NCBI GenBank assembly: GCA_001898185.1
Contig: MKTI01000013.1
Span: 310,001 to 374,000, forward strand
DNA length: 64,000 nt
From: Cellulomonas sp. 73-145
Lineage (GTDB): Bacteria; Actinomycetota; Actinomycetes; Actinomycetales; Cellulomonadaceae
Direction of reading: 5' to 3'
Each line of letters begins with the position of its first letter. Position 1 is the stretch's first letter. The notes under the pieces are model-generated. The model was not told the origin of the DNA, made no database searches, and saw only the letters and a list, made by a program, of their open reading frames with translations. Position numbers and translations under genes: made by a program. This document shows positions 5,306 to 60,675 of the stretch, one piece after another.

Positions 5306-5433
5306 GGGTTCCCCTCCGGATAGGCGGGAGGGTGTCCCCCACGAGTGTGGGACTGAAGTCCCGGGTCCTGCGAGAGTACGCCCCGAGGCGCCGGGGCCGC
5401 TCGACGCGCCGGGGGCAGCGAGCGACACGCCGG

Positions 5434-50407: not shown

Positions 50408-50767
50408 GTGAGCGAGCTCTACAAGGTCAAGGCCGAGCTGTTCCGCACCCTCGGGCACCCCGCACGGATCCGCGTGCTTGAGCTGCTGGCCGAGCGCGAC
50501 CGCCCCGTGCACGAGCTGCTGGCCAGCATCGACATCGAGCAGTCCAACCTGTCGCAGCAGCTCGCGGTGCTGCGCCGGGCCGGGCTGGTCAGCCAGCGGC
50601 GCGAGGGCGGCGAGGTGGTCTACGCCGCCAGCCTGCCGGCGGTGTCGGAGCTGCTGCGCATCGCCCGGCGGCTGCTGGCGGACCTGCTGACCGAGCAGCA
50701 GAACCTCAAGGCCGAGCTCGAGGACGGCGCGGCACCGGCGACCGACCAGCGGTCCGTGCGCGCATGA
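50408..50767 (+). CDS. ArsR-family regulator of the Ehr operon (Rv0081-like)
   Basis: A 119-residue winged helix protein starting at GTG with GAGGAGG upstream. LYKVKAELFRTLGHPARIRVLELLAERDRPV, described here as residues 4-34, and SNLSQQLAVLRRAGLV are close to M. tuberculosis Rv0081 from memory. It contains no cysteine, so it cannot be a thiol-based metal sensor of the classical ArsR type. It overlaps the next gene (ATGA) and is the first gene of the seven-gene operon, so it probably autoregulates it, as Rv0081 does its own locus. Confidence 0.9.
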   Translation: MSELYKVKAELFRTLGHPARIRVLELLAERDRPVHELLASIDIEQSNLSQQLAVLRRAGLVSQRREGGEVVYAASLPAVSELLRIARRLLADLLTEQQNLKAELEDGAAPATDQRSVRA

Positions 50768-51309
50768 GCCTGGTGGACCTGGCCCGGCTGATCCGGCGCA
50801 CCGGCCGCATCGCCGAGCCGGCGCCCGCCGCCCCCTCGGAGCAGCCGTCGGCGCAGGGGGCCGACGGCTCTCCGACCGCGTCGGCGGACGGCCTCCCCGC
50901 TCGCGACCTCCCCCGCGAGCTGCGCGGCAGCGTCCAGGTGCGGCACGTGGACGCCGGCTCGTGCAACGGCTGCGAGATCGAGCTGGCCGCCGCCTTCGGC
51001 CCCGTCTACGACGCCGAGCGCTACGGCGCCCGCCTGGTCGCCTCGCCGCGGCACGCCGACGCGGTGCTGGTCACCGGCGTGGTGACCCGGAACATGGCCG
51101 AGCCGCTGCGGCTGACCGTCGAGGCGACGCCACAGCCCCGCGTGGTGCTGGCCGTCGGGGACTGCGCCCGTGACTGCGGCATGTTCCGCGGCGCCTACGG
51201 CGTGGTCGGGGCCGCATCCGACGTGGTCCCCGTCGACCTGTCGGTGCCGGGCTGCCCTCCGGCCCCGGCGGACATCGTCGCGGCGCTGCGGCAGGTCACC
51301 GGCCGATGA
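50764..51309 (+). CDS. NuoB/HycG-like small subunit, [4Fe-4S] protein
   Basis: A 181-residue electron-transfer subunit. After a 50-residue low-complexity linker comes the cluster-binding fold with C67-NG-C70 (GSCNGCEIE), C134 in GDCARDCGMF and C164 in PGCPPAPADI, ligands for one N2-type [4Fe-4S] cluster. The CNGCE form is that of group 4 hydrogenase small subunits, not Nuo (which has adjacent cysteines). It should sit between the large subunit and the membrane arm. All ligands are intact, in contrast to the large subunit. Confidence 0.92.
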   Translation: MSLVDLARLIRRTGRIAEPAPAAPSEQPSAQGADGSPTASADGLPARDLPRELRGSVQVRHVDAGSCNGCEIELAAAFGPVYDAERYGARLVASPRHADAVLVTGVVTRNMAEPLRLTVEATPQPRVVLAVGDCARDCGMFRGAYGVVGAASDVVPVDLSVPGCPPAPADIVAALRQVTGR

Positions 51310-53306
51310 GCGCCGTGGCGTGGGGTCTGCTGGCGCAGGTGGTGCTCGCGGCGTGCGCCGTCGTGGCGGCGATCGGCACCCGTGGGCGGGCGCGAAACGT
51401 GGTGGCCGGCACGCTGTGCGCGGCGCTGGGAGCCGCCGGCGTGGTGACGGGTGCGCTGGTGCTCGGCGGCCGCACGGTCACGGTGCACGTCGCCACCGCA
51501 CTCCCCCTGCCGCCGATGGTGCTGGCGCCCGACCGGTTGGGCGCGCTGCTGATGGTGCTGGTCGGCGCCGTCGGGACGGTCGCCTCCGTCTACGCGATCG
51601 GGTACGTGCACGGCGCCTCGGCATCCCGCACGCAGTGGGCCGCGCTCGCCCTGTTCCTGCTCGGCATGCAGCTGGTGCCGGCCGCGGGCGACGTCGTCGG
51701 CTTCCTGCTCGCGTGGGAGCTGATGGCCGCGGCGTCGACCGTCCTGGTGCTCGCCGAGCACGCCCACCGCGCCACCGTGCGCGACGCGGCCGTCTGGTAC
51801 GCCGTGATGACGCACCTCAGCCTCGTGCTGATCCTGGCCGGGTTCGCCGCGCTCTCCGCCGCGACCGGGTCGACGCAGTTCGCCGCGATGGCGGCCGCGC
51901 GGCCGACGGGCGCCGCGGCGACCGCCGCGTTCGTCGTGCTCGTCGTCGGCTTCGCCGCGAAGGCGGGCCTGGTGCCGCTGCACGTCTGGCTGCCGCGCGC
52001 GCACCCGGAGGCACCGAGCCACGCGTCCGCCCTGATGAGCGCCGCGATGGTGTCGCTGGGTGCGTACGGCCTGCTGCTGGTCGGCGTGCGGCTGCTGCCC
52101 GGCGGCCCGACGTGGTGGGGCGTGCTGCTGATCGGCCTGGGTGCCGTCTCGGCGGTGTACGGCATCCTGCAGGCCGGGGTCGCCACCGACCTCAAGCGGC
52201 TGCTCGCCTACTCGACGTCGGAGAACCTCGGCCTGGTCGTCGTCGCCCTCGGCACCGCGATGCTGCTGACCACCCACCACGTGCCGGGTGCCGCGAGCGC
52301 CGCGCTGCTGGCCGCCCTGCTGCTGCTGGTCAGCCACGCGGCGTTCAAGGCGACGCTGTTCCTCGGGGCAGGTGCGGTGCTGCGGGCCACCGGTGAACGG
52401 GACCTGGACCGGCTCGGCGGACTCGTGCACGCGATGCCGTGGACGGCGGCGACGTTCGGCATCGGCTCGCTCGGCGCGGCGGCGCTGCCGGTGACCGGTG
52501 GGTTCGTCGCCGAGTGGACGCTGCTGCAGGCGCTGATCCACTCGGCTCGACCGGCGGACCGGGTGGTGGCCGTCGCGATCCCGCTCGCGCTCGCCGCGCT
52601 GGCGCTGACCGCGGGCCTGGCGCTGGTCACCTTCGTCAAGGCGTTCGGCATCGGGTTCCTGGCTCGCGCCCGGTCGGTGGCGGTGCTCGGCGCGCAGGAG
52701 GGGCCGTGGAGCATGCGGGTCGCGATGCTGGCCGGTGCGGTCGGCGTCGTCGCCCTCGGGGTGCTGCCGGGGCCGCTGGCACGGGTGCTCGCGGCTGCCG
52801 CGGGCGTGGACGGTGACGTGCGGACGGTGGGCCTGGGCGGCGTCGAGCTGCTCGGCGTGGCCGCGGTGCTGAGCCCGGTCGCCCTGCTGGGGCTCGGTGC
52901 CGGGGTCGCGATCCCCGCGCTGGTGGTCACGCTGGTGCTGGCCCGGCGGCGGCCGGCCACCACCGACGTGCTCGGCTGGGGCTGCGGCGGCGTCCGCACC
53001 AGCCCCCGCATGCAGTACAACGCCACGTCCTACGCCGAGCCGGTGATGCGCATCTTCGACGACGCGCTGCAGCCGTCCCGGGACGTCGTCGTCACCCACG
53101 TCGCGGAGTCCGCGTACCTCGCGGAGCGCGTCCGCTTCGCCCAGCGCGTGGACGACGTGGTGGAGGCGCGCCTGTACCGCCCGCTGGTCCGTGCGGCGGA
53201 CGCCCTGGCCGACCGCGCCCGCCGGGTGCAGAACGGGTCGATCCACCGCTACCTCGCGTTCTCCTTCACCGCCCTGGTCGCGGTGCTGCTGGTGGTGGTC
53301 GTATGA
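51306..53306 (+). CDS. HyfB/NuoL-like antiporter-type membrane subunit
   Basis: A 666-residue polytopic protein of the Mrp/Nuo antiporter family. Proton-channel residues appear intact: Glu in FLLAWELMAAAST, Lys in FAAKAGLVPLHVWLPRAHPEAPS, the LKRLLAYSTSENLG helix and a second Lys in AAFKATLFLGAGAVL. The C-terminal extension after residue 560 (CGGVRTSPRMQYNATSYAEP) is the part that runs along the membrane arm in HyfB and the Rv0083 product. It overlaps both neighbours by four bases. It should move protons or sodium, driven by the redox arm. Confidence 0.92.
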   Translation: MSAVAWGLLAQVVLAACAVVAAIGTRGRARNVVAGTLCAALGAAGVVTGALVLGGRTVTVHVATALPLPPMVLAPDRLGALLMVLVGAVGTVASVYAIGYVHGASASRTQWAALALFLLGMQLVPAAGDVVGFLLAWELMAAASTVLVLAEHAHRATVRDAAVWYAVMTHLSLVLILAGFAALSAATGSTQFAAMAAARPTGAAATAAFVVLVVGFAAKAGLVPLHVWLPRAHPEAPSHASALMSAAMVSLGAYGLLLVGVRLLPGGPTWWGVLLIGLGAVSAVYGILQAGVATDLKRLLAYSTSENLGLVVVALGTAMLLTTHHVPGAASAALLAALLLLVSHAAFKATLFLGAGAVLRATGERDLDRLGGLVHAMPWTAATFGIGSLGAAALPVTGGFVAEWTLLQALIHSARPADRVVAVAIPLALAALALTAGLALVTFVKAFGIGFLARARSVAVLGAQEGPWSMRVAMLAGAVGVVALGVLPGPLARVLAAAAGVDGDVRTVGLGGVELLGVAAVLSPVALLGLGAGVAIPALVVTLVLARRRPATTDVLGWGCGGVRTSPRMQYNATSYAEPVMRIFDDALQPSRDVVVTHVAESAYLAERVRFAQRVDDVVEARLYRPLVRAADALADRARRVQNGSIHRYLAFSFTALVAVLLVVVV

Positions 53307-54250
53307 GCGGCCCCGCGCTGCTGCTCGCCCTGGTGCAGGTGCTGGTCGCCGTCGCGTTCGCACCCCTGGTGGTCGGCGTGACGCGCCAGACGAGGGCTCG
53401 GCTCGAGGGCCGCGCCGGCCCCGGCGTGCTGCAGCCGTGGCGCGACCTGCGCAAGCTGCTGGCCAAGACGCCGCTGCGCGCCGCGGGCACCAGCGTCGTC
53501 ACGGTGGCCGCCCCGCTGGTGCTGCTCGTCTCGAGCCTGCTGCTGGCCGCGCTGGTGCCGTCGGTCGGCGCCGTGCCGGTCGCGCTGGTGCCGGGCGACC
53601 TGTTCGTGGTGGTGTCCGTGCTGCTGCTCGGCACGGTGGCGATCGCGCTGCTGGGGCTGGACGCCGGCTCGGCGTTCGGCGGCATGGGGTCCAGCCGGCA
53701 CATGACCATCGCGGCGCTGGTGGAGCCGACCGTGCTGGTGTCGGTGTACGCCCTGTCCATCCCGGTGGGCAGCTCGGCCCTGCCGCTGATCGTCGCGGCG
53801 CGTCGCGACCACCCGGCCGGCATCATCTCCCCCGCCGGCGTGCTGGCCGTGGTGGCGCTGGGCATCGTGGTGCTCGCCGAGACCGGTCGGCTGCCGATCG
53901 ACAACCCGTCCACGCACCTCGAGCTGACGATGATCCACGAGGCGATGGTGCTGGAGCAGTCGGGCCGCGACCTGGCCTGGGTGGACCTCGCGTCGTGGCT
54001 GCGGCTGTCCGTGCTGCTGGGGCTGGTCGGCAACCTGCTGCTGCCGTGGGGCGTCGCGGCGACGGTCGGCGCCGGACCGCTGCTGCTGGGCACCCTGGCA
54101 CTGGCCGGCAAGCTCGCGCTGCTCGCCGCCCTGCTGGCCACCGCCGAGGTCGGCATGGCCAAGCTGCGCCTGTTCCGGGTGCCGGAGCTGCTGGCCGGCT
54201 CGTTCGTGCTGGCCTTCCTCGCCGTCACCGCGTCGTACCTGGTCGCATGA
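53303..54250 (+). CDS. HyfC/HycD/NuoH-like membrane subunit
   Basis: A 315-residue protein with about eight helices, the subunit that links the redox arm to the ion-pumping arm. Family marks are TRQTRARLEGRAGPGVLQPWRDL after helix 1 (given as residues 28-50), the acidic segment RLPIDNPSTHLELTMIHEAM and EQSGRDLAWVDLASW. The PIDNPxTHLELTMxHE form is that of hydrogenase-type HyfC/HycD rather than NuoH. It corresponds in position to M. tuberculosis hycD (Rv0084). Confidence 0.93.
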   Translation: MSGPALLLALVQVLVAVAFAPLVVGVTRQTRARLEGRAGPGVLQPWRDLRKLLAKTPLRAAGTSVVTVAAPLVLLVSSLLLAALVPSVGAVPVALVPGDLFVVVSVLLLGTVAIALLGLDAGSAFGGMGSSRHMTIAALVEPTVLVSVYALSIPVGSSALPLIVAARRDHPAGIISPAGVLAVVALGIVVLAETGRLPIDNPSTHLELTMIHEAMVLEQSGRDLAWVDLASWLRLSVLLGLVGNLLLPWGVAATVGAGPLLLGTLALAGKLALLAALLATAEVGMAKLRLFRVPELLAGSFVLAFLAVTASYLVA

Positions 54251-54284
54251 ACGCCGCCGCATGAACGCCGTCCGAGAGGTCGCC

Positions 54285-55010
54285 ATGTCCCCGTCCGGGT
54301 CGGTCGCCACGCAGCTCGTCGCGCTGACCGCCGGCGCCCTGCTGGTGACCTCGGTGCTGCTCGTCTGGCGGCGCGACCTGTCGGCGCAGGTGCGCCTGCT
54401 GATGCTGCAGGGCGTCGCGCTGGCGGCCCTCGCGACCACCATCGGCCTGTCGGGCGGCCCCGGGACGTCCCGCGCCGAGCTGCTGCTGGTCGCCGTCCTG
54501 GTGCTGGCGCTGCGCGGCTGGCTGCTGCCGTGGGTGCTCGGCCGCCGGCTGCGCGCCGGGATCGAGGCCGGCGACGCGGCCCGGGAGGACGGTCCGCGCC
54601 TCAACCCGACGGCCGGCCTGGTGCTGGTCGCCCTGCTCACCACGGTCGCGTACCTGGTCAGCCGGCCGATCTCGGAGGGTGTCGCGGAGCACGCCGGTGC
54701 GCCGACCCCCGCGGGCACCGCCGGCCCGGCCGCATTCGCCGTGCCGGTCGGCATCGCGATGGTGCTGATCGGCTTCCTGCTGCTGGTCGGCCGGCGCCGC
54801 GCGATGTCGCAGCTGGTCGGCTTCCTCGTGCTGGACAACGGCATCGCGACCGTCGCGTTCCTGACGGCGGCGGGCGTGCCGTTCGCGGTGGAGCTCGGCA
54901 TCTCGTCCGACGTGCTGCTGGTGGTGCTGATCCTCGCGGTGCTGTCCCGACGCATCCACGCCCAGATCGGGTCCACCACGCTCGACTCGATGACGGAGCT
55001 GAGGGACTGA
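54285..55010 (+). CDS. HyfE-like membrane subunit (HycP position)
   Basis: A 241-residue membrane protein with about seven helices, equivalent to HyfE and fusing NuoJ/NuoK-like features. The C-terminal part (MSQLVGFLVLDNGIATVAFLTAAGVPFAVELGI, residues about 180-212) carries the conserved Gln/Asp/Asn helix and Glu. ATG 54285 is chosen for the GAGAGG site; an upstream ATG at 54261 would add eight residues. A mini-frame of five codons separates it from the HyfC-like gene, where ATGAACGCCG is duplicated. The stop overlaps the next start (TGATG). Confidence 0.88.
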   Translation: MSPSGSVATQLVALTAGALLVTSVLLVWRRDLSAQVRLLMLQGVALAALATTIGLSGGPGTSRAELLLVAVLVLALRGWLLPWVLGRRLRAGIEAGDAAREDGPRLNPTAGLVLVALLTTVAYLVSRPISEGVAEHAGAPTPAGTAGPAAFAVPVGIAMVLIGFLLLVGRRRAMSQLVGFLVLDNGIATVAFLTAAGVPFAVELGISSDVLLVVLILAVLSRRIHAQIGSTTLDSMTELRD

Positions 55011-56626
55011 TGGGTCTGCTCCTGCTGCTGCCGCCGGTTGCGGCCCTCCTCGCGGGGCTCGCGGCCGCCGCACCGCGACCGGCCGTGCCGAGTCCTTCGG
55101 GGCCGCGACCCGGCGCGCGTCCCCTCGCCGCACTGTCCGCGGCGACCACCCGCCTGTCGGGCGTCCTGGTCAGCGCGATCCTCCTGGGGACCGGTGTCGC
55201 ACTGCTGGTGCACCGCGGTGCCGTCCCGACGCTCGGCGGCGACCTGCTGCGCGCCGACGCGCTGTCCGCGCTGATGCTCACGGTGGTCGGCGCCGTCGGC
55301 CTGACCGCCACCTGGGCGGGACTGGAACCGCGGACGTCCCCAGCGGCGTCCGCGCACGGGCCCGGAGCCACACGCAGCGAGCGCCGCTACGCCGCCCTGG
55401 TGTGCGTGTTCCTCGGTGCGATGGCGATCGCGGTCACCACGGACAACCTCGGGGTGCTGTGGGTGGCCGTCGAGGCGACCACCATCGCCACCGCCTTCCT
55501 GGTGGGCCACCGCGGCGGCGCCCGCTCCCTCGAGGCGGCGTGGAAGTACGTGGTGCTCGGCTCGGTCGGCATCGCGATCGCCCTGCTCGGCACCGTGTTG
55601 CTGTACGCCGCGAGCCGCAGCGCCGGCGAGCCGACCCTGTCCTGGACCCGGCTGGTCAGCGGTGAGCTGCCGCTGGACCCCGCGCTGGTGAAGGTGGCCG
55701 CCGGGCTGGCGGTGCTGGGGTTCGCGACCAAGGCGGGGCTGGCGCCGATGCACTCCTGGCTGCCGGACGCCCACAGCCAGGCGCCGGCGCCGGTGTCGGG
55801 GCTGATGTCCGGCGTGCTGCTGGCCGTCGCGTTCTACGCGATCCTGCGGGTGCGCGCGATCGCCGCCGTGGTGATCGGGCCGGGACTGGTGCGGGGGCTG
55901 CTGCTGACGGCCGGCCTGGGTTCGCTCGCCGTCGCTGGCGCGCTGATCCTGCGGCAGCGGGACCACAAGCGGATGCTCGCGTACTCGAGCATCGAGCACA
56001 TGGGTGTCCTGGCGGTGGGGGCCGCCGTGGGGGGTCCGGTGGCGCTGGCCGCGGTGCTGCTGCACCTGATCGGGCACGGGCTGGCCAAGGCGAGCCTGTT
56101 CGTGGTGGCGGGGCGGATGCTCGCCTCCGAGGGCACGACGACGATCGCCGAGGTCCGCGGCCTGCTGAGCCGCCGTGCCGACCTGGCGGTGCCGCTGGTC
56201 GTCGGGATGGCCGCACTGCTCGGCTTCCCGCCGTTCGCGCTGTTCTTCTCCGAGGTCGCGATCGTGCTGGCCGGCTGGCGGGCGGGGCTCGGCTGGGCGA
56301 TGGCCCTGGTCGTGGTGCTGCTGCTGGTGGTGGTCGCGGGCCTGGTCCGCGCGACGGCGGCGATGACCCTGGGCCCGGCCGACCAGGCGCACGCGGTTCA
56401 CGACGAGCGCACGACGACGACCATCACCTCCGCGCCCGACGGGTCGGCGTCGGTCGCCGTCGCCACGCTGGCCCCGCCGCCGGCCCCACCACAGGCCCAT
56501 GGCGCCGACCGCGGGCCCATGCTGCCGCTCGTCCTGGCACTGGGCACCACGGCGGTGATCGGGTTCTTCGCCATGCCGGTCGGTGACGTGCTGGCGCGGG
56601 CGGCCGCCGTGCTGGGGCTGTCATGA
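55010..56626 (+). CDS. HyfF-like antiporter-type membrane subunit (HycQ position)
   Basis: A 538-residue NuoN/HyfF-type subunit. Channel residues are in place: Glu in LWVAVEATTIATAF, Lys in FATKAGLAPMHSWLPDAHSQAP, HKRMLAYSSIEHMG and Lys in HGLAKASLFVVAG. A low-complexity cytosolic insert (residues about 468-500) precedes the final helix. This is the second ion-translocating subunit of the complex. It overlaps the large-subunit gene by four bases (ATGA). Confidence 0.92.
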   Translation: MGLLLLLPPVAALLAGLAAAAPRPAVPSPSGPRPGARPLAALSAATTRLSGVLVSAILLGTGVALLVHRGAVPTLGGDLLRADALSALMLTVVGAVGLTATWAGLEPRTSPAASAHGPGATRSERRYAALVCVFLGAMAIAVTTDNLGVLWVAVEATTIATAFLVGHRGGARSLEAAWKYVVLGSVGIAIALLGTVLLYAASRSAGEPTLSWTRLVSGELPLDPALVKVAAGLAVLGFATKAGLAPMHSWLPDAHSQAPAPVSGLMSGVLLAVAFYAILRVRAIAAVVIGPGLVRGLLLTAGLGSLAVAGALILRQRDHKRMLAYSSIEHMGVLAVGAAVGGPVALAAVLLHLIGHGLAKASLFVVAGRMLASEGTTTIAEVRGLLSRRADLAVPLVVGMAALLGFPPFALFFSEVAIVLAGWRAGLGWAMALVVVLLLVVVAGLVRATAAMTLGPADQAHAVHDERTTTTITSAPDGSASVAVATLAPPPAPPQAHGADRGPMLPLVLALGTTAVIGFFAMPVGDVLARAAAVLGLS

Positions 56627-58251
56627 CCACGCCTCGTCCGACGAGCCCGGTGGGGTCGTCCTCCCCCGCCGCGCCCGACCCGGCCGCAGTCGACCCCGCC
56701 GCCCCGGCTGGCGACGCCCGCGCCGCCTGCACCCTGACCCGCGCGGAGCTGCCCGCTCAGGTCGAGGCCCACCTCGCCGCCGGCCATCGCCTCGCTCTGG
56801 TCGCCGGGCACGACGACGGCGCCACCGGCTTCCGCGTGGTCTACGCGTTCGCCGACCCGGCCACCGACCGGCGCACCGAGCTGACCGTCGCCGTGCCGCG
56901 CGACGACGCCTGGATCCCGTCCCTGTCCACGGTCTCCTTCGCGGCTGGCCGGTTCGAGCGTGCCATCCGCGACGGCTTCGGCATCGAGCCCCGCGACCAC
57001 GTCCGTCCCCGGCGCCTGACCCGGCACGCCCACTGGCCGGCCGGCTGGTACCCCATGCGTCGGGACGCCGCGACCGACCCGGTGTTCGGTCCGGACGAGA
57101 GCGGCTTCGCCTTCGTGCCGGTCGAGGGCCAGGGGGTCTACGAGATCCCGGTGGGCCCCGTGCACGCCGGGATGATCGAGCCGGGGCACTTCAGGTTCTC
57201 GGTGGTCGGGGAGACCATCGTCCGGATGAAGGCCCGCCTGTGGTTCGTCCACCGCGGCCTGGAGAAGCACCTGCAGGGACGGACGCCGGAGCAGGCGCTG
57301 CCGCTGACCGAGCGGATCAGCGGCGACACCGCGGTGGGGCACGCGCTGACGTTCGCGATGGCGGTGGAGGACGCGCTCGGCCTGGAGGTCGGCGAGCAGG
57401 ACCGGCTGGTGCGCGCGCTGCTGCTCGAGCTCGAGCGGCTGCACTGCCACGTCGCCGACCTGGGCGCGATGGCCAACGACGTCGGCCTCGGCATCCTGCA
57501 GACGCACACCCTCCGGCTGCGCGAGCAGCTGCTCCGGTCGAACGCCCTGGTCACCGGGCATCGGCTGCTGCGCGGCGGCATCGGCATCGGCTCGGCGCGC
57601 CTGCGCGGGCTGCCGGACGTCGAGCTGGTCGGCTCCGTCGCCGCCGAGGTGGCCGAGCTGGTCCGCATCGCCCAGGGCACCGCCGTGCTGGTGGACCGCT
57701 TCACCGGGACGGCCGTGCTGCACCGCCAGCAGGCTGCCGAGATGGGTGTGCTCGGCTACGTCGCGCGGGCCAGCGGGCTGGACGTGGACGCCCGTCGCGA
57801 CCACGCGTTCGTCGACCTCGGCGCGTCGTTCCGGGTCTGCACGGCCGAGACCGGCGACGCGATGGCGCGGTTCACGGTGCGGGCCGACGAGGTGGCGGTC
57901 AGCGCCGCGGTGATCGCCGACCTCGTCGACAGGCTCGGCGGGCACCTCGGCACCGGTGGTCCGGTCGCGGAAGACGCGACGCACGCAGCGGACGAGGGCG
58001 ATGCAGACCGTGACGACGACGCCTCTGCGACCCCCGTCGCGCACGGGCTCGCGCTCGTCGAGGCCTGGCGCGGCACCGCGTGCCACCGTGTCGAGCTGGA
58101 CGCAGCCGGCCGGCTGACCAGGGCCGCGATTGTCGACCCGTCGTTCTTCACGTGGCCGGCGCTGCCGGTCGCGCTGGCGGACACGATCGTCCCGGACTTC
58201 CCCCTGGCCAACAAGAGCTTCAACCAGTCCTACGCCGGCAACGACCTCTAG
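56623..58251 (+). CDS. HycE/NuoCD-like large subunit without nickel ligands (Ehr type)
   Basis: A 542-residue protein. A NuoC-like domain covers about residues 40-150 (VAVPRDDAWIPSLS, HWPAGWYPMR), and a NuoD/hydrogenase large-subunit domain follows. Where NiFe hydrogenases have CGIC, this reads S233-GD-T236 (ERISGDTAVGH); where they end CYSCTD, this reads S536-Y-A-G539-N-D. All four NiFe cysteines are thus gone, while the fold and the DFPLANKSF segment are kept. The protein stops one residue after that motif, so there is no tail for a maturation protease. It probably handles a quinone-like or other non-hydrogen substrate. Confidence 0.92.
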   Translation: MTTPRPTSPVGSSSPAAPDPAAVDPAAPAGDARAACTLTRAELPAQVEAHLAAGHRLALVAGHDDGATGFRVVYAFADPATDRRTELTVAVPRDDAWIPSLSTVSFAAGRFERAIRDGFGIEPRDHVRPRRLTRHAHWPAGWYPMRRDAATDPVFGPDESGFAFVPVEGQGVYEIPVGPVHAGMIEPGHFRFSVVGETIVRMKARLWFVHRGLEKHLQGRTPEQALPLTERISGDTAVGHALTFAMAVEDALGLEVGEQDRLVRALLLELERLHCHVADLGAMANDVGLGILQTHTLRLREQLLRSNALVTGHRLLRGGIGIGSARLRGLPDVELVGSVAAEVAELVRIAQGTAVLVDRFTGTAVLHRQQAAEMGVLGYVARASGLDVDARRDHAFVDLGASFRVCTAETGDAMARFTVRADEVAVSAAVIADLVDRLGGHLGTGGPVAEDATHAADEGDADRDDDASATPVAHGLALVEAWRGTACHRVELDAAGRLTRAAIVDPSFFTWPALPVALADTIVPDFPLANKSFNQSYAGNDL

Positions 58252-58903: not shown

Positions 58904-59377
58904 TCAGGCCTCCGTCGTCCCGTGCGTGACGGCCGGCGCGTGCACCACGACCACCGGGCAGTGCGCATGCGTGACCACGTGCTGGCTCACGGAACCGAGC
59001 AGCAGACCGGTGAACCCGCCGTGCCCGCGGCTGCCGACCACGACGAGCGCCGCGTCACGGGCCGCGTCGAGCAGCACCCGTGCCGCGTGCCCCTGCTCCA
59101 CCCGCTGCCGCACGTGCACCGACTCGTCGCCCTGGAGCGCGTCCTTGACGGCGTTCTCGAGGGCCAGCGTCGCGCTGCCGGCCCACTCGAACGTGCCGAG
59201 TGCGGCGACCGCGAGGTTCACCGGGTAGTCCCAGGACATCACCGCCTCGACCGGCTGCCCGGTGAGCCGGCCCTGGGCCACCGCCCACTGCAGCGCGGCC
59301 TTGGAGGAGGCGGACCCGTCGACGCCGACGACGATCCGCCCGGACGATTCCTTCTGATCGGCACTGGAGATGCTCAC
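58904..59377 (-). CDS. Universal stress protein, ATP-binding type
   Basis: A 157-residue single-domain USP with complete nucleotide signature: IVVGVDGSASSKAAL at the start and GSRGHGGFTGLLLGSVS near the end, i.e. G-x2-G-x9-GS, followed by CPVVVVH. It starts at GTG 59377 with GGAGG eight bases upstream. It lies close to the Ehr operon; in mycobacteria USPs and the Rv0081 locus share the hypoxia response, but shared control here is only a guess. A hairpin follows the stop. Confidence 0.93.
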   Translation of the reverse strand: MSISSADQKESSGRIVVGVDGSASSKAALQWAVAQGRLTGQPVEAVMSWDYPVNLAVAALGTFEWAGSATLALENAVKDALQGDESVHVRQRVEQGHAARVLLDAARDAALVVVGSRGHGGFTGLLLGSVSQHVVTHAHCPVVVVHAPAVTHGTTEA

Positions 59378-59502
59378 GACCTGTCCTCCCGCCTGTGGCG
59401 ATCGGTGAGTCGGTCGAGCGGCCGGCTCGCACCCGGCGCCTGCGCCGGAGCGCAGCTCCAGCCTAGTGAGCGGGCGCGCAGGCGGCGTGGGCGGGGCGCA
59501 TC

Positions 59503-60675
59503 TCACGCGCAGGTGCGCTCGACGGCCTCCAGCACCATCGCGTCCAGCCGGCCGTGGCGCGCCACCGACTCGCGCTGCGCACGCGCACCGGTGCCCTGCT
59601 CCAGCACCCGCCGGATCGACTCGCGCACCACGTCGAGGTCGCCGTTGGCGTGCAGCGCGGCCTCGACGTGGTGCACCAGCGCGGCGAGCACCTCGGGGGC
59701 CGGTCGCAGCCGGCCGGTCCGCGGGTCCACCAGCTCGCCGTCCGTCCCCGAGCGGCTGGACCGCCACGACGCCAGCCGCAGCAGCGCCGCGGGCTCGTCG
59801 GACGCCGGAGCACCGGCCCGCCACTCGCCGGCCGCCGTGTCGACCAGCGCCCGGCACAGCGCCGCGACCAGCACGGCGTCGGCCACGTCCAGGCACACGT
59901 CGGCGACGCGCACCTCGACCGTCGGGTACCGCCGGGACAGCCGGGCGTCGAAGTAGACCATCCCCTCGTCCAGCAGGGTGCCCGTGCCGATCATGTCGTC
60001 CACCAGCCGGCGGTACGCGGCGGCCGAGCCGAACACCTCCGTCGGGCCGGTCGCAGGCCAGCGGCTCCACGACTGGGTCCGGTAGCTGGCGTAGCCGGTG
60101 TCGACGCCGTTCCAGAACGGCGAGTTGGTCGCAACTGCCGCGACCGCCGGCAGCCAGGGCCGGATGCGGTCCAGCACCGCGACGCCCTCGTCGGGCGAGC
60201 TGACGGCGACGTGCACGTGGCAACCGCAGGTCAGCTGCTCGTCGCAGGCGATGGCCAGCGCCCGGCCGATCGCCTGGTACCGCGGCGACGGGCTGATGCG
60301 CGGCCGCGCCGGTAGCGGCGACGTGCCGAGCGCCGCCACCCGGAGCCCGGCTCGGCGTGCGGCGGCGTCGGCCGTGCGGCGCAGCCGGTGCAGGTCGTCC
60401 GCGAGCGCGGCCAGCTCGGTCCGCGGCGGCGTGGCCACCTCGATCATCTGCTGCTGCAGCTCCATGGTGAGCTCGCTGCGCCGGGGGTAGGCCGGCGCAG
60501 CGCCCGGTTGCGGGTCGTCCCCGGACTCGTCGGACCAGGCCGGCACGTCGTCCACCCCCGCCAGGACCTGTGGCGCCGCCGGGACGGCGCAACCGGACTG
60601 CGGGTCGATGAGCAGGAACTCCTCCTCGACGCCGAACGTGCGCACGGATGCGCCCCTGCGATCCACGCCGACCAC
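59503..60675 (-). CDS. YbdK-type carboxylate-amine ligase (glutamate-cysteine ligase 2 family)
   Basis: A 390-residue ATP-grasp-related ligase of the GCS2/YbdK family. Marks are RTFGVEEEFLLIDPQSG at the N-terminus with the metal-binding Glu cluster, TMELQQQMIEVATPP, CGCHVHVAVSSPDEG and FDARLSRRYPTVEVRVADVC. E. coli YbdK has weak glutamate-cysteine ligase activity; in actinobacteria, which use mycothiol, the true substrates are unknown. The start is a GTG at 60675, or a second GTG three codons later. It is monocistronic. Confidence 0.9.
   Translation of the reverse strand: MVGVDRRGASVRTFGVEEEFLLIDPQSGCAVPAAPQVLAGVDDVPAWSDESGDDPQPGAAPAYPRRSELTMELQQQMIEVATPPRTELAALADDLHRLRRTADAAARRAGLRVAALGTSPLPARPRISPSPRYQAIGRALAIACDEQLTCGCHVHVAVSSPDEGVAVLDRIRPWLPAVAAVATNSPFWNGVDTGYASYRTQSWSRWPATGPTEVFGSAAAYRRLVDDMIGTGTLLDEGMVYFDARLSRRYPTVEVRVADVCLDVADAVLVAALCRALVDTAAGEWRAGAPASDEPAALLRLASWRSSRSGTDGELVDPRTGRLRPAPEVLAALVHHVEAALHANGDLDVVRESIRRVLEQGTGARAQRESVARHGRLDAMVLEAVERTCA

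Follow-up and report, generated by a model that had tools for sequence, protein, structure and literature searches.

A predicted energy-converting hydrogenase-related complex of Cellulomonas without nickel ligands, and relatives with fewer ligands for its last iron-sulphur cluster

Organization of the operon

We analysed a stretch of 64,000 nucleotides from Cellulomonas sp. 73-145 (contig MKTI01000013.1, positions 310,001 to 374,000; hereafter the window), which harbours an operon of seven co-directional genes on the + strand at positions 50408-58251. They code, in this order, for an ArsR protein, a NuoB/HycG-like, a HyfB-like, a HyfC-like, a HyfE-like and a HyfF-like subunit, and a HycE-like protein with fused NuoC/NuoD-like parts. 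An earlier reading made from the DNA letters alone, called here the sequence-only reading, had described seven overlapping genes. All seven are present, but overlaps of 1-4 bases occur at five of the six junctions, the HyfC-HyfE junction being a 10-base gap. The G+C content of the operon is 75%, and that of the window ranges from 70 to 76%.

The first gene (50408..50767) codes for an ArsR/SmtB-type regulator of 119 residues devoid of cysteine (HTH_5, 8.4e-12; NF033788 above its cut-off). It is followed by the gene for the NuoB/HycG-like small subunit (50764..51309; 181 residues; Oxidored_q6, 2.5e-29), with one predicted [4Fe-4S] site and no ferredoxin domain. The first 21 residues of this subunit (50764..50826) probably represent a stub that resembles the N-terminal arm of ferredoxin-NuoB fusions minus the ferredoxin part. 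Next come the HyfB/NuoL-like antiporter-type subunit (51306..53306; 666 residues; conserved E138, K219, H344, K348 and E403), the HyfC/NuoH-like anchor subunit (53303..54250; 315 residues; conserved E141, E193, E207, E213 and E218), the HyfE-like membrane subunit (54261..55010; 249 residues) and the HyfF/NuoN-like antiporter-type subunit (55010..56626; 538 residues; conserved E155, K179, K241, H356 and K360). The channel Lys and Glu residues of HyfB, HyfC and HyfF are thus present, as that reading had proposed. The last gene (56623..58251) codes for the HycE/NuoCD-like large subunit of 542 residues, identified by Pfam, phmmer and alignments.

Pfam matches in the operon are to ArsR, Oxidored_q6, Proton_antipo_M (twice), NADHdh, and Complex1_30kDa with Complex1_49kDa and the N-terminal part of NiFeSe_Hases. 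They support the earlier assignments of all the products except the HyfE-like subunit, which has no Pfam match and matches NCBIfam NF008556 (2e-17) under its cut-off. The Pfam and NCBIfam assignments agree on the families. Among the NCBIfam matches examined (the best 25 of 73 for HyfB and the best 25 of 72 for HyfF), the ArsR protein alone reaches a cut-off, and so, as judged from these matches, none of the six complex subunits appears to be a standard Nuo, Hyc or Hyf protein. The predicted complex combines a membrane arm of the complex I type, made up of the two antiporter-like subunits, the NuoH-like anchor and the HyfE-like subunit, with a hydrogenase-shaped arm devoid of a NiFe site and of a ferredoxin domain, in which one proximal [4Fe-4S] cluster is predicted. 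Within the operon we found no genes for NuoI, NuoEFG (the N module) or other electron-input proteins, none for FdhF, formate dehydrogenase or HycB-type proteins, and none for DabA or carbonic-anhydrase-like proteins.

The large subunit lacks the nickel and quinone ligands

The best solved relative of the large subunit is HycE of Escherichia coli (7z0s_E; E = 1.3e-44 with phmmer), whose RVCGIC motif aligns onto RISGDT here. Alignment to L010 and L057, both Cys-bearing (first pair CAAC or CAGC, second CYSC or CYAC), places S233 and T236 at the positions of the first pair, and S536 and G539 at those of the second. The first CxxC motif is therefore replaced by S233-G-D-T236 (57319..57330) and the second by S536-Y-A-G-N-D541 (58228..58245), close to a C-terminal end that reads SYAGNDL. 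The alignment to HycE thus confirms the S-G-D-T and S-Y-A-G reported earlier in place of CGIC and CYSC. The sequence-only reading would have been contradicted by Cys pairs elsewhere in the protein; we looked for them, and the large subunit contains four Cys in total, none of them within a CxxC.

Over all sets of genomes we collected 165 distinct large subunits, de-duplicated by their last 380 residues: 152 belong to complexes of the same Cys-less kind (described as Ehr below), seven bear the Cys residues and six were set aside (L168, L169, L249, L250, L251 and L294). None of the 152 has the four Ni-coordinating Cys residues, and one of them (L165) has a single Cys; Asp235 is present in 151. 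The replaced motif is not a chance event, since it is kept over 152 distinct relatives.

HypD is required for NiFe insertion. Searches for HypD (PF01924; the other Hyp proteins were not searched) found none in the window's genome, in its close relatives G027, G034 and G032, which carry the operon, or in any of 35 genomes searched among the 39 of genus g28 that have it. The profile found HypD in 15 of 68 genomes searched, including two of the window's genus (G004 and G012), and in 4 of the 14 named genomes that served as positive control. An active NiFe site with displaced Cys residues was therefore rejected, no other Cys pairs and no HypD having been found, and the proposal that the complex is not a hydrogenase holds. 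As a separate observation, a Cys-bearing group-4-like large subunit (L167) is encoded in a genome, G067, in which HypD was not found.

In complex I, the quinone head group is presumably held by a His and a Tyr, which we take to correspond to His38 and Tyr87 of Thermus Nqo4. Profile alignment (hhalign, probability 100) with 11 NuoD-type proteins of the window's class aligned R231-I-S-G-D-T with R-M-D-Y-V-A, and H181 with the first His of HPSTH. The quinone His and Tyr positions, 49 apart, correspond to Ile185 and Gly234 in the window protein, and both are invariant in the 152 relatives. A canonical quinone site was rejected, both complex I ligands being absent.

The complex belongs to the Ehr family

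These features make the window complex almost certainly an energy-converting hydrogenase-related (Ehr) complex, a known kind, as proposed earlier. It has a large subunit related to those of group 4 hydrogenases without Ni ligands, antiporter subunits of the Mrp/Nuo type together with NuoH- and NuoB-like subunits, and it groups with Cys-less relatives. The CxxC pairs and HypD expected of a group 4 [NiFe] hydrogenase were not found, nor were the quinone His and Tyr and the NuoI/NuoEFG genes of respiratory complex I, or the formate dehydrogenase and HycB-type subunit of formate hydrogenlyase. Published descriptions present Ehr complexes as group-4-like, without the residues that coordinate Ni and with no known function, and suspect them of translocating charge in a redox-coupled manner (PMC6349859, PMC10284858). 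The window complex resembles those of Geobacter (GSU0739-45), comammox Nitrospira (EhrL), Margulisbacteria and Saganbacteria, which, as far as these sources and PMC7894505 describe them, have a group-4-like large subunit without Ni ligands, antiporter-like subunits and an unknown partner. It differs from them in having no ferredoxin domain and an ArsR gene in the operon, the Geobacter and published Nitrospira complexes being compared by description only.

A full-length relative occurs in 6 of 36 genomes of the genus, and relatives with 54-100% identity in 22 of 296 genomes drawn from the class, the window's own genome being included in both counts. With one genome scanned per species, we confirmed at least 580 relatives and examined the best 80, whose titles name Actinobacteria, Acidobacteria, Rokubacteria, Nitrospira, Methylobacter, Patescibacteria and others. 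Of these 80, 76 have another motif, mostly SGDT or SGDS, in place of the first Cys pair; the remaining four (L120, L129, L132 and L142) bear the Cys residues.

When 97 large subunits were placed in a tree by a quick maximum-likelihood search, with NuoD as the root, the Cys-less proteins formed one group of 87 rows with a Shimodaira-Hasegawa-like approximate likelihood ratio test (SH-aLRT) support of 97; long branches (L270 and L062) and odd letter make-up in 25 rows were flagged. The phylogeny places the window protein in this group, in line with the earlier proposal, and three Nitrospira loci (L105, L108 and L113) also lie within it. Since the Cys-less proteins group together and the Cys-bearing ones lie outside, a single loss of the Ni site is probable. 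The window and its genus (5 rows) stand beside a sister group of 13 rows (support 95), the joint group of 18 rows having a support of 99. In addition, two stand-alone relatives of the large subunit (L168 and L169, in G068 and G090), with 34-37% identity, have lost the pocket motifs; an ArsR-like gene is present, and the fetched stretches contain no other complex genes.

Cluster ligands were lost in separate lineages

The window's small subunit has all four ligands of the [4Fe-4S] cluster (C67, C70, C134 and C164), as the sequence-only reading had it. Among the small subunits read for the best 80 relatives, two CxxCxxC motifs of a fused ferredoxin domain occur in five, those of the Cys-bearing L120, L129 and L132 and of the Cys-less L133 and L114. 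One such motif is found in the counted stretch of six others (L118, L122, L124, L127, L142 and the actinobacterial L078). The remaining ones, from Actinobacteria, Nitrospira, Rokubacteria, Methylobacter and others, have none, as in the window. The N-terminal stub (..TGRIAEPAP, similar to ..TGVVTxxYP) is retained in many small subunits.

Of the 135 Ehr small subunits that could be read, 76 have four ligands and 59 have fewer, including L102 of Rokubacteria with a single ligand change. In genus g28, which belongs to the sister clade of the window's genus, the large subunit is present in 39 of 57 genomes, all of which also have the other five complex genes. The fourth ligand, C164, is lost in all 39, with Ser in 23, Asn in 12 and Thr in 4, and one of them also lacks C134. 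Other members of the g28 family lack C164 (L246) or retain C70 only (L247 and L087). Searches of 15 g28 genomes for Oxidored_q6 matched nothing but the Ehr small subunit in 14 of them, and the same 15 genomes have one large-subunit match each and no NuoD. We also observed in three genomes of the g28 family (G408, G618 and G573) a distant second Ehr-like complex (L249, L250 and L251), with Asp, Asp, Asp and Ala or Ser at the four ligand places and a large subunit that reads E-G-I-A at the first motif.

Most ligands have been lost in 16 Patescibacteria-type complexes, which lack C134 and C164 in every case and C67 in all 15 that are readable there; C70 is kept in 7 of 15 readable. This set comprises L116 (titled Daviesbacteria), L140 (Moraniibacteriota), L139 (Thermoleophilia), the untyped L138 and L141, and complexes from class searches around L116 and L140, which gave matches in 6 of 281 genomes (one, G948, Cys-bearing) and 14 of 285 (three partial). 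The ligand counts for this set and for g28 were de-duplicated by hand-made lists.

In the tree, the sister group of the window's genus contains three members with intact ligands and ten, forming one clade (support 99), with one to three ligands lost. Given the well-supported branches, proteins that miss two or more ligands require at least three state changes and those that miss one require two, counts that may include regains according to the program's warning. The electron path has been dismantled stepwise, the window's version having neither Ni site nor ferredoxin domain and some relatives lacking ligands of the last cluster as well.

The rest of the complex is conserved

Forty-six columns of the small subunit are at least 90% conserved in cluster-bearing members, 42 of which are not ligands. 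The mean retention of these 42 is 88% for the 16 Patescibacteria-type complexes and 84% for g28. The loss thus concerns the ligands and is no general decay of the subunit. The channel residues are similarly retained in complexes with four, three, and two or fewer ligands, respectively: HyfB K219 in 76/76, 43/43 and 24/25, HyfB K348 in 76/76, 43/43 and 25/25, HyfC E193 in 77/78, 43/43 and 25/25, and HyfF K241 in 79/80, 43/43 and 25/25. Two His residues do change among complexes with three ligands, HyfB H233 being kept in 2/43 and HyfF H352 in 1/43. These counts include some genomes twice, and the four-ligand group contains Cys-bearing hydrogenase-like complexes. In the Patescibacteria-type large subunits, H210, E214, S233, G234, D235, S536, Y537 and D541 are each present in 16 of 16.

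We also determined the ratio of non-synonymous to synonymous substitution rates (dN/dS) for five complex subunits, HyfE being left out. In g28 the small subunit has a median of 0.15 and the four others have medians of 0.17-0.24 (741 pairs each); in the window's genus the medians are 0.20-0.41 (14-15 pairs).

Half of the Patescibacteria-type operons lie near ATP synthase genes

ATP synthase genes occur within the fetched stretch in 8 of the 16 Patescibacteria-type loci. They lie beside the Ehr operon in L140, L141, L284, L288 and L290, and on both sides at a distance in L116; L266 has atpC only, and in L286 the whole Ehr operon is inserted between atpG and atpD. The ATP synthase subunits were confirmed by Pfam for L286, L140 and L116. 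The other eight loci have no ATP synthase genes in the fetched stretch, some of which stop at contig edges. Protein clustering of the window and 80 named loci found ATP synthase families only at L116, L140 and L141.

Literature searches, limited to open-licence papers, found no report of Ehr complexes without cluster ligands, in Patescibacteria, or beside or in an atp operon. The stepwise loss of cluster ligands in Ehr relatives and the link to ATP synthase are new here.

Comparison with known systems

The window complex shares with respiratory complex I (NuoB, C, D, H and L/M/N) the families of the membrane arm and the NuoD fold, unlike which it has no N module or NuoI in the operon and carries Ile185 and Gly234 in place of the quinone His and Tyr. 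HyfB and HyfF are members of the antiporter-like family that also includes the Mrp Na+/H+ antiporters; we know of no NuoH-, NuoB- or NuoD-like subunits in the latter. The likeness to formate hydrogenlyase and hydrogenase-4 of E. coli lies in HycE and in the NuoC-like domain fused to the large subunit. The E. coli formate hydrogenlyase, as described in PMC9474812, contains NiFe in HycE, together with eight [4Fe-4S] clusters and FdhF. In contrast, the window complex has one predicted cluster only.

The Rv0081-Rv0087 locus of Mycobacterium tuberculosis presumably has the same gene order as the window, from ArsR to HycE, and we liken it by gene order only; three mycobacterial relatives (L074, L080 and L082) have SGD(T/S) and SYAGND, as in the window. 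Passages of two papers list the genes of the M. tuberculosis locus, call it a predicted formate hydrogenlyase or a putative [NiFe]-hydrogenase, and cite its regulation by Rv0081, MprA and DosR (PMC5484546, PMC6901956).

Possible function of the complex

By the textbook account, complex I and its relatives are redox machines whose ion pumping is driven by arriving electrons. For the Ehr complex, the best overall explanation, to which we give an even chance, is that it acts as an ion translocator whose core step would not involve electron transfer. The non-redox mechanism itself we hold at slightly below even. The former active-site cavity (SGD(T/S), SY(A/S)G, H181, H210, E214 and D235) would be a gate operated by protonation or by a ligand, the Ehr-specific Asp235 being part of this polar site, and the glutamates of HyfC would link the gate to the movement of ions in HyfB and HyfF. 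In the simplest mode, H+/cation antiport or gated ion flow would set the ion gradient on which ATP synthase draws. The one cluster left in the window complex would have a structural part or would sense redox state for the gate, and could for that reason have been lost in relatives; ArsR would set the expression of the complex. Electron arrival as the driving step is hard to reconcile with a pocket and membrane arm that are unchanged with or without the proximal cluster site. The missing Ni and quinone ligands and HypD, the uneven presence of the ferredoxin domain, the repeated loss of cluster ligands beside retained channels, the dN/dS of the g28 small subunit and the nearby ATP synthase genes also speak for this reading.

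The alternative that deserves most attention is a redox pump. A soluble low-potential donor such as ferredoxin or flavodoxin would reduce the proximal cluster, a small acceptor (quinone or other) would be reduced in the former NiFe cavity, ions would be driven out, and the cluster-less forms would have been re-purposed later. This is the published view of Ehr, as far as the relevant part of PMC6349859 goes, and it agrees with the intact ligands of the window and of the 76 four-ligand small subunits and with the conserved cavity and channels. The sequence-only reading had likewise proposed a redox-driven pump or an ion-driven reductase, which our results support in part only; the window's own cluster ligands favour it, whereas the lack of a ferredoxin domain, of an electron-input gene in the operon and of the complex I quinone His and Tyr speaks against it, as does the loss of ligands in separate parts of the tree by relatives with the same pocket. 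No donor gene was found among the families common to more than 11 of 81 loci either. We regard a redox pump as possible, if on the unlikely side. A complex linked to formate or coupled to another dehydrogenase, as the mycobacterial annotation 'formate hydrogenlyase' implies, would fit the likeness to HycE and HyfB-F, the molybdopterin-family matches of the window's genome (six matched stretches) and the Geobacter Ehr, which part of PMC7894505 describes as commoner with formate than in hydrogen-containing conditions. It is improbable, as the operon has no FdhF- or HycB-like gene and the complex, having no NiFe site, no H2 end; moreover, a search of 14 Patescibacteria-type Ehr genomes gave no match to the molybdopterin oxidoreductase family PF00384, which makes a formate dehydrogenase of that family unlikely there. 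Non-redox machines with NuoL-like subunits are known, and by analogy with the DAB or NDH-1MS systems the polar pocket might perform CO2/bicarbonate or other hydration chemistry that drives, or is driven by, ions. With no DabA or carbonic-anhydrase-like gene in the operon, we consider this quite improbable. Finally, the patchy spread in the genus and class, the lost cofactor sites and a g28 genome (G377) whose large subunit is split into two matches could denote a decaying, functionless relic of a group 4 hydrogenase; the open frames in the window, the median dN/dS values of 0.15-0.41, the new invariant pocket residues and the retained channels make this very improbable indeed.

Several observations weigh against an ion translocator that does without electrons, beginning with the formate association of the Geobacter complex. 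The g28 small subunits keep three Cys residues and might still hold a cluster, and a redox role may persist wherever four ligands are kept, the window included. One Patescibacteria complex of the same set (L292) has all four ligands, most of which are missing from the other 16 of these 17. Patescibacteria may have re-purposed the complex. Furthermore, a further Oxidored_q6 gene is located elsewhere in 8 of 16 Patescibacteria-type genomes searched, including every one of the seven in which the Ehr operon lies by at least two ATP synthase genes. The argument from Patescibacteria is weakened by these second genes, and a cluster subunit might be borrowed there.

The non-electron ion translocator can be placed in a broader, more tentative scheme, which we hold as plausible but somewhat short of an even chance. 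Within the complex I superfamily, Ehr would form a branch that works without electrons. The peripheral arm would serve as a gate, the iron-sulphur wiring would be disappearing piecewise in separate lineages, and the Patescibacteria form that lacks the cluster ligands would translocate ions in partnership with ATP synthase, its genes lying in or next to the ATP synthase operon. The family looks like a natural series from a hydrogenase to a possibly electron-free ion machine. If so, a lineage with whole membrane and peripheral arms and no redox cofactor would be a natural experiment separating the two halves of coupling, and would allow a direct test of the membrane arm working alone. The 'formate hydrogenlyase' or 'hydrogenase' label of the homologous mycobacterial operons would also be in question, and the arrangement would hint at how some Patescibacteria manage an ion gradient beside ATP synthase.

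Neighbouring genes and regulation

In the comparison of the window with 80 named loci (flanks of up to 10 kb), the families widely shared besides the core genes are ArsR-like (32 of 81 loci), response-regulator-like (16) and one further family (11). A conserved electron-input neighbour was rejected on this basis. Scans for promoters and terminators found nothing.

Outside the window, the genome's own complex I nuoD gene (G000:C3 near 137310; L299, L001) lacks approximately 74 bases near its 3' end relative to the sister genome G027 and is frameshifted, which may reflect an assembly error or a broken complex I. Downstream of the Ehr operon and convergent with it, genes for a universal stress protein domain and a glutamate-cysteine ligase of family 2 lie on the minus strand (58904-60675). 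A DosR-type box at the operon was rejected: the sole perfect GGGACNNNNGTCCC is far off, at 5349, and with one mismatch allowed the window has 3 matches versus a mean of 9 in shuffled sequences. That perfect DosR-like palindrome, GGGACTGAAGTCCC (5349-5362), is close upstream of a reading frame on the minus strand with its start near 5307.

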